Shown: piece after piece, positions 22,099-39,575 of the stretch
How the letters are laid out: every line of letters starts with the position of its first letter
Numbering within the stretch: position 1 is the first letter of the stretch
From: Betaproteobacteria bacterium GR16-43
Lineage (GTDB): Bacteria > Pseudomonadota > Gammaproteobacteria > Burkholderiales > Usitatibacteraceae
Length of the DNA stretch: 64,000 bases
Reading direction: 5' to 3'
Assembly: GCA_001953215.1 (NCBI GenBank)
Contig: CP019169.1
Span: 3,720,001-3,784,000 of the forward strand
Program-made: the position numbers and the translations under genes
Notes under the pieces: model-generated
What the model was told of the DNA's origin: nothing
Databases searched by the model: none
The model's input: only the letters and a program-made list of their open reading frames with translations

Positions 22099-22108
22099 GG
22101 AAAGTCAA

Positions 22109-22245
22109 AGGCGAAAGGCGCTCTCCGCCGATAAACGCGGATAAACGCCGATGAAAGGTAGTAAGGGATTCAGCCTGGAAGCTCTTTGCTCTTCGAACTT
22201 CATCGGCGTGTATCTGTGTTTATCGGCGGAGGACGCCTTTCGCCT
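22109..22245. repeat. inverted-repeat element, copy A (no gene)
   Basis: Two 47-bp arms (22109-22155 and 22199-22245) are inverted copies with a few mismatches and enclose a 43-bp loop. The outer ends read AGGCGAAAGGCG and the inner ends CGCCGATGAA, with CCGATAAAC-type segments between. The same outer end occurs at 36969 and 38174. It lies directly after acnA, in the convergent gap with the hydroxylase-family gene. Confidence 0.85.
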
Positions 22246-22251
22246 GAAAAG

Positions 22252-24993: not shown

Positions 24994-25018
24994 TATGAAG
25001 ATCGGAGACGTCTTGTCG

Positions 25019-25223
25019 ACGCAGATGCCCACCCTTGGAAAGAGGAAAGCCGCCAGAAGGCGGCTCTCAGAATGCGGGTTATCGCAGATGAACACAGATA
25101 AAACCTTGCGAGGTGCCTCCGAAGAGACTCTGCCTGGGGTTATCTGCGTTCATCTGCGATAACCTGCCGTCTGGAGAGCCGCCCGTGGGCGGCTTTCTTC
25201 TTTCCAAGGGTGGGCATCTGCGT
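25019..25223. repeat. long compound inverted repeat, copy B, with nested hairpins
   Basis: Arms of 87 and 86 bp (25019-25105, 25138-25223) are inverted copies, identical over the outer 24 bases (CGCAGATGCCCACCCTTGG and following) and diverging mainly in the middle. Each arm contains its own GC hairpin: AGCCGCC/GGCGGCT at 25048-25065 and AGCCGCCC/GGGCGGCT at 25177-25194. The inner part (ATCGCAGATGAACACAGATAA) resembles the arms at 38174-38664, but the AGGCGAAAGGCG end is absent. With the flanking candidate operators it accounts for most of the 413-bp gap 24897-25309. Confidence 0.8.
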
Positions 25224-25265
25224 GGATAAACCTTCGCCGATCTCGAATCAGTCATTCACATCATT

Positions 25266-35207: not shown

Positions 35208-35278
35208 AAAATCGGGGTCAGGGTAGAAATAAGTGCTGGGCAACGCGCAGCATTTATTTCTACCCTGACCCCGATTTT
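35208..35278. repeat. palindromic repeat (palindrome family 2, copy 2)
   Basis: Two 31-bp arms (35208-35238 and 35248-35278) with one mismatch and a nine-base loop share AAATCGGGGTCAGGGTAGAA with the palindrome at 30804-30859; the central part differs. Again it fills most of a convergent gap (MFS gene plus, lipoprotein gene minus) and would fold as a strong terminator hairpin. Confidence 0.9.
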
Positions 35279-36968: not shown

Positions 36969-37127
36969 AAAGGCGAAAGGCGTCCTCCGCAGATAAACGC
37001 AGATACACGCCGATGAATCCCTCCAGCAAGAACGAAAATCTGGGTTAAACCCAACGTCCTTTCGGTTTGCTTGAGGAAATCATCGGCGTGTATCTGCGTT
37101 TATCTGCGGAGGACGCCTTTCGCCTTT
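36969..37127. repeat. inverted-repeat element, copy C (perfect 48-bp arms, no gene)
   Basis: Arms 36969-37016 and 37080-37127 are perfect inverted copies of 48 bp, starting AAAGGCGAAAGGCG and ending ACGCCGATGA, around a 63-base loop. The loop contains a short TGGGTT/AACCCA hairpin. It occupies the convergent gap between the sigma operon and mdh and is probably also their terminator. It is the best preserved copy of the family also seen at 22109 and 38174. Confidence 0.92.
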
Positions 37128-37138
37128 GACCTTCCTTA

Positions 37139-38122
37139 CTACTTGAGGAGATGCGCGATCGCAGCCCGCTCCTCTTCGAGCTCCTTCTGCGTGGCCGCGA
37201 TCTTCGCCTTCGCGAAGTCGTTGTGCTCGATGCCCTTCACGATCGTGTACTGGCCGTTCGCGGTCGTGCAGGGATAGCCGAAAATGATGCCCTCGGGAAT
37301 GCCGTAGCTGCCGTCCGACGGCACGCCCATCGACACCCATTCCGTGGAACCCAGCACCCAGTCGCGCACGTGGTCGATGGCCGCGTTGGCCGCCGAAGCC
37401 GCTGACGAAAGGCCGCGCGCATCGATGATGGCCGCGCCGCGCTTCTGCACCGTCGGGATGAACGTGCCCTCGATCCAGGCCTGGTCGTTGATGGTCTGCG
37501 CGGCGTTCTTGCCCGCGACTTCCGCATGGAAGACATCCGGATACTGCGTGGCCGAGTGGTTGCCCCAGATCGACATCTTCTTCACGTCGGTCACGGCCTT
37601 GCCGGTCTTCTGCGCCACCTGCGTCAGCGCCCGGTTGTGGTCGAGGCGCATCATCGCCGTGAACTGCTGGGGCTTCAGGCCCTTCGCGTTCTTCATCGCG
37701 ATGAGCGAGTTCGTGTTGGCCGGGTTGCCCACGACCAGCACCTTCACGTCGCGCGAGGCCACTTCGCCCAGCGCCTTGCCCTGCGGCACGAAGATGGCGC
37801 CGTTGGCTTCGAGGAGGTCCTTCCTTTCCATGCCCGGGCCGCGGGGACGCGCGCCCACGAGGAGGGCCACGTCCACATCGCGAAACGCAGCCGTGGCATC
37901 CGACGTGCCCACCATGGACTGCAGCAACGGGAACGCGCAGTCGTCCAGCTCCATCATCACGCCCTTCAGCGCCTTCTGGGCCTTCTCGTCGGGGATCTCC
38001 AGCAGCTGGAGGATGACGGGCTGGTCCTTGCCGAGCATCTCGCCGCTGGCAATGCGGAACAGCAGGCTGTAGCCGATCTGGCCTGCGGCGCCGGTGACGG
38101 CGACGCGCATGGGCTTCTTCAT
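37139..38122 (-). CDS. mdh: malate dehydrogenase
   Basis: The 327-residue NAD-dependent enzyme interconverts malate and oxaloacetate. [21 protein letters not shown] near 7-27 is the dinucleotide-binding loop. [22 protein letters not shown] near 88-109 carries substrate-binding arginines, [16 protein letters not shown] near 127 and MRLDHNRA near 154 follow, and the catalytic histidine is in [12 protein letters not shown] near 187. This is the 325-330-residue type common in betaproteobacteria. The ATG at 38122 is preceded by GGAGAAAG; an earlier in-frame GTG/ATG would add 13 unlikely residues. A TATAAT (38161-38166, minus strand) lies 39 bp upstream at the edge of an inverted-repeat element. 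Confidence 0.95.
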
Positions 38123-38160
38123 GGTTTCTTTCTCCGAGGGAATGAGAGCGCTGACGCGCA

Positions 38161-38166
38161 ATTATA
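38161..38166 (-). promoter_or_regulatory. putative -10 element of mdh
   Basis: The minus strand reads TATAAT here, 39 bases before the mdh ATG. The matching -35 position falls inside the left arm of the inverted-repeat element at 38174 and shows no good consensus. The element may therefore have replaced or altered the original upstream promoter half. Confidence 0.4.
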
Positions 38167-38173
38167 AAAGACT

Positions 38174-38664
38174 AAGGCGAAAGGCGTTTGTCCGCAGATG
38201 AACACAGATGAACGCAGATAACCCCACCGCTAGAAGTCCCAGACGACGCGCCGGTACTCGAGCTTTGGCATCCCGAAGTTCAGCAGCAATCCCAGGTTCA
38301 GCCTTGTGACACGCAAGTAGTTCATGCACTGAGCAAGGTGCGGATCATCCAGAGCACGAATCGCCTTGATTTCAATGAGGACCACCTCGTCGACGATGAT
38401 GTCCGGACAGTACTGACCTACGAGACGCCCGCGATAGGTGACGTCGAAGGCCCTTTGAATGGCCACAGAATGTCCCGCCTCCTCCAGTTCAATGGCCAAC
38501 GCATTCTCGTATACCTTTTCCAGGAAACCGTGACCCAGTGACCTGCCGACCTTGAACGCGCATGCGAGCACACTTCCGGTGGTCTCGTTCAATCTGGCCC
38601 GCTCGAGTTCGCTTTTCATCTGCGTTCATCTGCGTTCATCTGCGGACAAAACGCCTTTCGCCTT
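38174..38664. mobile_element. inverted-repeat element, copy D, carrying a GxxExxY gene
   Basis: A 46-bp left arm (38174-38219) and a 47-bp right arm (38618-38664) are inverted copies with one mismatch and one single-base indel. Both have AAGGCGAAAGGCG at the outside and CAGATGAACGCAGAT-type segments inside. They share the outer end with copies at 22109 and 36969. The interior is almost entirely one gene (38230-38619) on the minus strand, whose ATG is part of the right arm. I classify it as a putative small mobile element; transposition is not shown. Confidence 0.7.
38230..38619 (-). CDS. GxxExxY protein, PD-(D/E)XK nuclease-like
   Basis: The 129-residue protein carries the family signature GFLEKVY (G31, E34, Y37) that names the GxxExxY group. 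It also has a clean PD-(D/E)XK arrangement: P72-D73, then E83-I84-K85 (PDIIVDEVVLIEIK), followed by QCMNY (Q97, Y101), the QxxxY motif of several nuclease-fold families. Function is unknown; a nuclease role is inferred from these residues. The start ATG lies within the right inverted-repeat arm (CGCAGATGAAAAGC), so the arm supplies its leader. The coding DNA looks less GC-rich than the neighbours, consistent with acquisition. Confidence 0.88.
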   Translation of the reverse strand: MKSELERARLNETTGSVLACAFKVGRSLGHGFLEKVYENALAIELEEAGHSVAIQRAFDVTYRGRLVGQYCPDIIVDEVVLIEIKAIRALDDPHLAQCMNYLRVTRLNLGLLLNFGMPKLEYRRVVWDF

Positions 38665-38675
38665 TGTTTTGTTGA

Positions 38676-39575
38676 CTAACCCTTCTTCTGAAGGGTGATC
38701 GCAAGCACGCCGGCAAGAACCAAAGCCGCGCCAGCGAGCTGGATCGCGGTAATCGCTTCATCGAGAAACCAATACCCGAAGAAGATCGTCGCCACCGGCC
38801 CCACCGCCCCGATCATCGCGGCATGGCTCGAGCCGATGCGGCGGATACCCTCGGCGGTGAGCACGATCGGGATCACCGTCGAGACCAGCGCCATGGTCAG
38901 CGCGAGGCCGTAAACCGCGGTGGGTTGGGAGAACAGCAGCGCGGCATTGTTCGTCACGAAGAAATGCCCCACCACGCCCACGCACGAAACCAGCGCTGCG
39001 TAGCAGGCGAAGCGCATGCTCCCCAGCCGCTCCACGTAGCGACCACTGCCGAGCAGGTAGCCCGCGTAGAAGAGCGCCGAAAGGAAAACCCAGAACGCAC
39101 CCAGCGCCACGTTGGAGCCGGTGAGCGAAAAGTCGTGCGCCACCACCAGCACGATCCCGCCATACGAAAGCCCGAGTGCCAGGACGTCGCGGCGAGTGAC
39201 CTTGCGCTTGAAGAAGATCGCGGCGAGCAACAGCACCATCGTCGGATACAGGAACAGCACCAGCCGCTCGAGCGCCGCGGTGATGTACTGCAGCCCGATG
39301 AAATCGAACAGGCTCGCGAGGTAGTAGCCCATCATCCCGAGCAGCACGACCGCGCGCCAGTCGGGGCGCGAGAGCGGCATCACGTGCTCGCCGCGCGCCG
39401 ACCACAGGCCCAGGGCGAGGAAGAACGGCGCGCTGATCAGCATGCGCAACGCGAGCAGCGTGACGGGATCGACGCCGTGCCGGTACGCGAGCTTGATGAT
39501 GACCGCCTTGGCGGAAAACGCGACGGCCGCGACGGTGACGAGGATGGCGCCGGTGAGGCGCGCGGAGGAAGCCAT
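38676..39575 (-). CDS. EamA/DMT-family transporter
   Basis: The 299-residue protein has ten hydrophobic helices in two EamA repeats (about 10-140 and 150-290). Motifs include AVIIKLAYRHGVDPVTLLALRMLISAPFF near 25-53, YITAALERLVLFLYPTMVLLLAAIFFKRKVTRRDVLALGLSYGGIVLV near 97-144, and in the second half RRIGSSHAAMIGAVGPVATIFFGYWFLDEAITAIQLAGAALVLAGV. Members move amino acids or other metabolites; the substrate is unknown. It ends 11 bp from the inverted-repeat element and starts 13 bp after the GGDEF gene, so it may belong to the transcript of the giant protein and the GGDEF gene. Confidence 0.9.
   Translation of the reverse strand: MASSARLTGAILVTVAAVAFSAKAVIIKLAYRHGVDPVTLLALRMLISAPFFLALGLWSARGEHVMPLSRPDWRAVVLLGMMGYYLASLFDFIGLQYITAALERLVLFLYPTMVLLLAAIFFKRKVTRRDVLALGLSYGGIVLVVAHDFSLTGSNVALGAFWVFLSALFYAGYLLGSGRYVERLGSMRFACYAALVSCVGVVGHFFVTNNAALLFSQPTAVYGLALTMALVSTVIPIVLTAEGIRRIGSSHAAMIGAVGPVATIFFGYWFLDEAITAIQLAGAALVLAGVLAITLQKKG

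Follow-up and report, generated by a model that had tools for sequence, protein, structure and literature searches.

The window analysed here, a stretch of 64,000 nucleotides from Betaproteobacteria bacterium GR16-43, holds at positions 38168-38670 an element of ~500 bp, in which a single gene of the GxxExxY/PDDEXK_3 family lies between two inverted arms. The left arm (38168..38219, + strand) carries the outer end AAGGCGAAAGGCG at 38174-38186, followed by three units of 10 bp (CGCAGAT/CACAGAT/CGCAGAT, beginning at 38193, 38203 and 38213 on the + strand), and the right arm (38618..38670, - strand) presents the inverted arrangement, with units starting at 38618, 38628 and 38638 followed by CGCCTTTCGCCTT at 38652-38664. 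Each arm is therefore an array of three CRCNGAT+3 units at 10-bp spacing inside the outer AAGGCGAAAGGCG. Pairing between the arms covers 33 nt on the inner side (38187-38219 with 38618-38650, 97% complementary) and 22 nt on the outer side (38168-38189 with 38649-38670, 91% complementary). Aligned as one, the arms measure 52 and 53 nt, so that the initial annotation of this DNA, which had described inverted arms of 46-47 bp, was right about the inversion and fell short on the length. Treated as single-stranded DNA, the element has a predicted fold that beats 100 of 100 shuffles (z -5.58), and a search of the window against Rfam returned no match.

The gene itself (38230..38619, - strand) encodes a protein of 129 amino acids with the residues of a PD-(D/E)XK nuclease, and its ATG at 38619-38617 lies across the inner boundary of the right arm; both the lone 129-codon gene between the arms and the start codon inside the right arm had been noted in the initial annotation. 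The opposite strand of the gene contains a mechanical ORF of 67 amino acids. Two neighbouring ORFs run in the same direction as the gene, at 37139-38161 (- strand) and 38676-39575 (- strand), and from our own reading of their translations they are taken to be malate dehydrogenase-like (mdh) and EamA-like, respectively. Further along the window, an ORF of 7775 amino acids (40614-63941, - strand) consists mostly of near-identical tandem repeats of ~140 residues.

Profile searches placed the window protein in Pfam PF13366 PDDEXK_3 (128.3 bits, cut-off 22) and in NCBIfam TIGR04256 GxxExxY (129.3 bits, cut-off 35). The name-giving motif, counted along the sequence, is G31xxE34xxY37, and the active-site residues P72-D73 and E83-x-K85 are present together with Q97xxxY101, in agreement with the PD-(D/E)XK residues and QxxxY pointed out beforehand. 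No Y1 domain was found in the profile search, and because the protein is a PDDEXK_3 member, the element contains no transposase of a known class. The AlphaFold model has a mean pLDDT of 97, and its best VIA matches were SSO0001 (Z 10.1), presumably a Cas4, AF1548 (8.3) and R.SwaI (8.0), the three shown at Z >=8; Hjc followed at 7.7, within the range below 8 that may reflect a common arrangement only. The top VIA rows were mostly restriction-endonuclease-like folds, and several of the nearest structures act on branched or single-stranded DNA. Foldseek returned nothing at E <=0.001 (best E 1.8e-3), a PDB sequence search gave one chance-level match (E 0.23), and PADLOC and PHROGs searches gave weak matches only.

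Little has been written on this family in the literature searched, which held few subscription papers and did not extend to bioRxiv. There, GxxExxY occurs as a passing gene name with no described function, and PF13366 is mentioned. TIGR04256, IPR026350 and PDDEXK_3 had no mention in the same literature, twelve unit strings were absent from it, and queries by name, topic and DNA string retrieved no description of the element.

The arms are far more abundant than the gene. Within the window, AAGGCGAAAGGCG occurs six times with at most one mismatch, five of them exact, against a chance mean of 0.11 and a count of six reached by 0 of 100 shuffles. Some of these belong to gene-less hairpins, listed without strand: one at 36970..37126 has 3+3 units and the same outer ends as the gene-bearing element, and another at 22108..22246 has arms (22109-22155 and 22199-22245) that are 89% complementary. 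These are the two gene-less copies already reported, and both are real; a third, with 2+2 units and other outer ends (25068..25173, within a longer inverted repeat at 24999-25243), had been overlooked. A hairpin of another kind, AAAATCGGGGTCAGGGTAGAAATA..., lies at ~35208-35278, and its core recurs in the inverted repeats that flank L318, a Y1 (RAYT-type) gene from the same genome, so that this one window contains both a REP-like copy of the classical sort and hairpins of the new kind.

Across the 4.81-Mb single-contig genome (G000), the outer-end 13-mer has 31 exact occurrences (16+15; reversed-pattern control 0+0), and the unit pattern with at most two mismatches has 68 + 65 matches. A whole-genome search for such palindromes, as proposed in the initial annotation, thus yields many outer ends, and the window element is the sole gene-bearing copy of its own arm type. 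Other gene-bearing copies do exist in the genome, with other arm sequences. At least 58 paired-arm elements were recognised among the matches listed, and further copies are present; 46 of the 58 have 3+3 units, 56 are gene-less, and the two that exceed 400 bp are the window element and a GxxExxY element at 801371-801823 with CGCCGATCCC-type arms. Read by eye, the gene-less copies fall mostly into two subfamilies, a CGC-type (many with AAGGCG ends) and a CAC-type (GGAC ends). The arms of a GxxExxY gene at 3691155 resemble this second type, and those of a gene at 3851988 are RAG-type. In the fifth GxxExxY match of this genome (L041, G000:C1:2927041), the catalytic D and K appear by eye to be replaced and the flanks are unpaired (score 20), and in its syntenic sister (L036, G002:C1:2753612) D and K are intact and the arms pair (score 60).

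The two arms of a copy evidently evolve together. Among the 46 full-arm copies of the genome, left and right arms differ at 1.33 positions on average, compared with 1.91 when right arms are re-dealt within a subfamily, a value as low as the observed one being reached in 0 of 5000 deals. The same test in G004, a relative with 15 usable copies, gave a like trend that was not significant (307/5000). The hairpins of that genome (L247-L266), in which no GxxExxY gene was detected, have arms that are near-identical between copies and spacers of 48-92 nt that vary from copy to copy, a pattern not accounted for by plain duplication of entire hairpins.

Association of inverted arms with GxxExxY genes was examined in loci drawn from relatives, from a 397-genome sample of the phylum, of which only matches given as loci entered the analysis, and from a scan of GTDB contigs. 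The GTDB scan used GFLE-type patterns, and the best 80 of at least 568 relatives were taken, so that GLLE-type loci came only from the whole-genome searches for the protein family. Scanning of 137 loci gave 135 with a full domain (136 domains), of which 131 domains in 130 loci had flanks of sufficient length; five loci that repeat places of the genome of the window (L013, L016, L031, L035 and L038) were excluded, and duplicates between collections (L033/L120, L155/L175) remain in the counts. An inverted-flank score of at least 30 within 250 nt was found for 113 of the 131 domains and for 8 of 740 control ORFs from the same loci. Against shuffles of their own downstream flanks, 124 of 131 domains reached p <=0.05, 119 of them scoring above every one of the 100 shuffles, and the two sampling routes agree at the score of 30 (65/76 and 48/55). 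An earlier null, in which upstream flanks were joined to downstream flanks of other loci (134/776 at >=30), was set aside as weak because unit sequences are common to different loci. Host records, many of them metagenome-assembled, include Cyanobacteriota, Planctomycetota, Acidobacteriota, Myxococcota, Thermodesulfobacteriota, Chloroflexota, Spirochaetota, Bacteroidota, methanogenic archaea and others, the single spirochaete locus being not significant against its own-flank shuffles.

These loci define a common architecture, in which the coding sequence of a small PD-(D/E)XK (GxxExxY) protein is, on sequence evidence, enclosed by a pair of inverted arrays, each of about three short units. The 113 strongly inverted loci have a median element length of 479 bp. 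Of 265 pairs of adjacent RAT units, 242 have a spacing of 10 bp, which is one helical turn; of 101 pairs of RAG units, 90 have a spacing of 8 to 10 bp. The sole in-frame start codon falls in the arm or further out in 34 of the 113, and a start is available between arm and domain in 63. The physical unity of arm and gene seen in the window therefore holds widely, as does the remark, made in the initial annotation, that CAGATGAACGCAGAT-type repeats accompany GxxExxY genes in other genomes. That the arms are static intergenic hairpins, such as terminators, which adjoin an unrelated gene by chance, would agree with their short paired form and with the intergenic position of the few sites viewed closely. 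The proportions just given (113/131 against 8/740, with 119/131 beating all of their own shuffles), together with the match between protein clade and unit type described below, leave this explanation extremely improbable, and chance or terminator origin of the arms was rejected on the control-ORF and shuffle tests.

The flanks of the 131 domains were classified as RAT (GAT or AAT; 83), RAG (33) or unlabelled (15). On a protein tree of 128 rows, 14 of them unlabelled, from which L039 and L041 were left out and in which the two L124 domains stand under one name, the label switches between RAT and RAG once among the 114 labelled rows, although this was a quick tree with many weak forks. Residue 32 of the window protein, within the GxGF/GxGL motif, is F in 81 of 81 RAT rows and L in 33 of 33 RAG rows, and eleven alignment columns separate the unit types almost fully (residues 25, 32, 35, 39, 68, 69, 71, 100, 104 and 116, and one insertion). 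Both types occur together in G000, G002, G010, G024 and G049, where each labelled gene has its matching arms, so that the type of arm is tied to the protein rather than to the genome. Because protein clade and unit match, recognition of the arms by the nuclease is strongly implied. The two unit types part at a single deep point of the tree, and the match could therefore also stem from joint descent.

Gene-less repeats are numerous mainly where the genome has the gene. Among 61 relatives, two-unit RAT counts are related to presence of the gene (Mann-Whitney p 1.2e-7), which was found in 12 of 15 genomes with at least 10 RAT matches and in 2 of the 46 others, one sub-cut-off match (G055) being scored as gene absent. 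RAG matches minus their reversed control likewise track the gene (p 1.4e-6). For the Spearman correlation of RAT units with the GxxExxY gene, rho was 0.81 within the family (28 genomes) and 0.67 across the full set of 61. There are exceptions to this relationship. Repeats lack a detected gene in G004 (99% complete, one contig), which has 109 two-unit RAT matches and no GxxExxY match, in G006 and G008 (11 and 10 RAT matches) and in G041, where 76 RAG matches (41+35; control 1+2) and nine Y1 matches occur with no TIGR04256 match. Genes accompanied by hardly any dispersed units, as counted with these patterns, were seen in G054 (both patterns) and G049 (RAT, 2 matches), and the RAT-rich drafts G001, G005 and G022 (81-90% complete) yielded only a GLLE-type gene or a gene fragment.

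Y1 transposase genes, which are proposed to move REPs, occur in 43 of the 61 genomes, and one alternative is that the hairpins are ordinary REPs moved by RAYT (Y1) transposases, with GxxExxY as a passenger. G000, G002 and G004 have 3, 5 and 3 Y1 matches, respectively, and G004 combines hairpins and Y1 genes with no GxxExxY gene; the correlation of RAT units with Y1 transposases over all 61 genomes, rho 0.23 (p 0.069), also leans in this direction. Within the 28 genomes of the family, however, RAT units do not track Y1 genes (rho 0.12, p 0.55), and the drafts G007 and G012 carry 13 and 33 units with no Y1 match. Inspection of 31 Y1 loci, two of which are the same place, found a RAT pair at none and a single RAG pair at four; for 20 of these loci the comparison was limited to the 250 nt adjoining the domain, which makes it a poor test of their own inverted repeats. 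Among the 11 Y1 loci of G000, G002 and G004, 10 have inverted repeats of their own, and GGGTCAG occurs in six of the seven listed. Y1 counts and Y1-locus flanks do not support a RAYT as the mover of these hairpins, and this alternative is very unlikely.

Comparison of orthologous loci, which the initial annotation had recommended, revealed presence and absence of the element. At the mdh-EamA site of the window, it is found in G000 and G002 and is missing from the same-genus genomes G004 and G005 (the site is unreadable in G001 and G003), so that relatives do not all carry it at the same syntenic position. The G002 gene at this site has 26 bases missing in the alignment, which would break the frame. 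In G004 the gap between the flanking genes (L200) contains a different palindrome, GTCATCCTGAGGGTCG.... For a second site, in the genus of G085, 23 species were searched and 14 of them read by eye: the full element is present in G085 and G077, truncated or decayed forms in G108, G454 and G200, other hairpins or remnants in G182, G100, G188 and G452, unrelated sequence in G453, and no element in G104, G069, G081 and G171. None of the loci compared showed a transposition event, a target-site duplication or an empty site exact to the base, the flanks of the relatives being too diverged for exact boundaries. Of the suggestion of a minimal mobile or self-propagating element, the unity of arms and gene is supported, and mobility with self-propagation goes beyond this evidence.

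A third site bears on how occupancy arises. At the junction of two genes that are presumably livH and livM, named from our own reading of the flanking sequence, the element was found in 9 of the 22 family genomes that could be resolved (28 searched, 25 matched); the 13 without it have a short spacer (10) or a longer one (three), and four of these 13 are weak alignments. With two betaproteobacterial MAG records, eleven loci have the element at this junction, and in each of them its gene runs the same way as its neighbours. In G016 and G018 (L022 and L026), the flanks are 96.1% and 96.5% identical and the proteins 56% identical, and the arms differ as well (CACGGATGAA versus CGCCGATGAA), gene and arms having been swapped as a set. 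Several of the eleven loci share, by eye, a leader like TGCGTTATCGAGTTA, which makes it probable that descent explains part of the shared occupancy, with gene and arms probably replaced together thereafter.

Repeated occupancy of the livH-livM junction would be explained by a homing-type element, whose nuclease cuts element-free sites and is copied in by homologous repair. The eleven occupied loci, with the gene in one direction, and the existence of sisters with an empty junction are what such an element would produce. Homing is nevertheless rather unlikely: many unrelated sites are occupied, gene-less copies are dispersed along the chromosome, the conserved DNA is that of the arms and not of a target, and the leader points to descent for part of the pattern.

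Searches elsewhere were nearly empty. With the window protein, tblastn matched 3 of 72,556 records from plasmids and none of 50,697 from phages. Viral contigs, scanned with a GFLE-type pattern, yielded one locus, with weak arms of its own (score 33), and the window element as DNA had no match in E. coli. Near-absence from plasmids, phages and viral contigs is more in keeping with a low-copy partner gene on the chromosome than with an insertion sequence. It would also suit a hairpin- or cruciform-processing chromosomal nuclease that does not move arrays and for which the arms are binding sites, serving autoregulation or a host role, and the low copy number of the gene, persistence of the element at syntenic sites and the frequent position of the start codon in the arm point the same way. 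This is the strongest of the alternatives, albeit a doubtful one, since a static role does not readily account for arms on both sides of a gene that is their sole cargo, for dispersed gene-less arm pairs whose numbers differ among sister species, or for sites that are filled in one sister and empty in another.

The reading preferred here, and the one that is probably correct although well short of certain, is that the window element belongs, as the member that encodes the nuclease, to a widespread class of hairpin repeats of the chromosome that works like a REPIN-RAYT system with a PD-(D/E)XK enzyme. From the combined observations, we infer that the nuclease moves the repeats. Several protomers would bind along the helical-turn array of their own arm units, probably when an arm pair is extruded or exists as a single-stranded hairpin, and the nuclease would then nick or cut at the arm. 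Repair or replication of the broken hairpin would copy arm pairs to new intergenic sites. Gene-less hairpins would use the nuclease in trans, so that the gene could stay at low copy number while hairpins multiply. More broadly, there is about an even chance that GxxExxY nucleases constitute a second, independently evolved REPIN-RAYT-like system of bacteria and archaea, in which the PD-(D/E)XK enzyme reads a two-letter code of RAT (GFLE-type) or RAG (GLLE-type) arms and spreads gene-less hairpins, many CGCAGATGAA, CACGGAGAA and CGCAAAGGA intergenic repeats being its products.

If these proposals are true, a widespread family with no described function in the literature searched gains a substrate, a common class of dispersed palindromic repeats is explained, and a nuclease fold unrelated to the RAYT transposase joins the enzymes that sustain small chromosomal repeats. 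The clade-specific unit code, with its eleven separating columns, offers a ready problem in DNA recognition. Together, the findings suggest that a class of chromosomal repeat elements equipped with a nuclease of their own has been overlooked.

Among known systems, PD-(D/E)XK nucleases such as SSO0001, Hjc, R.SwaI and alkaline exonuclease resemble the window protein in predicted fold and active-site residues, whereas the window gene stands alone inside repeat arms. IS200/IS605 transposons have a small nuclease-type gene and structured ends, features common to the GxxExxY element, but the window protein has no Y1 domain and the arms are long, inverted and built of units. MITEs are gene-less copies that share ends with a gene-bearing parent IS, as gene-less GxxExxY hairpins share ends with a gene-bearing copy; the GxxExxY element differs in having no known transposase and in arms that are unit arrays, with spacers that vary between copies in G004; at the diverged flanks compared, no target duplication was seen. 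A chromosomal nuclease gene present in few copies, alongside many gene-less hairpins, is closer to REPIN-RAYT than to a transposon. REPINs are described as inverted doublets with a spacer that are dispersed in the chromosome and can form hairpins, and RAYTs (TnpA_REP) as low-copy genes near their cognate repeats, distinctive where several coexist, with evidence of enzyme-repeat co-evolution (PMC3116915, PMC8266576). The GxxExxY system likewise has dispersed hairpin-forming doublets (at least 58 elements in the genome of the window) and a repeat abundance that, with exceptions, tracks the gene. Its enzyme, in contrast, is a PD-(D/E)XK protein unrelated to the HUH/Y1 enzyme of REPIN-RAYT, the place of the REP is taken by an array of about three 8-11-bp units (CRCNRAK), and the gene itself sits between its two arms.
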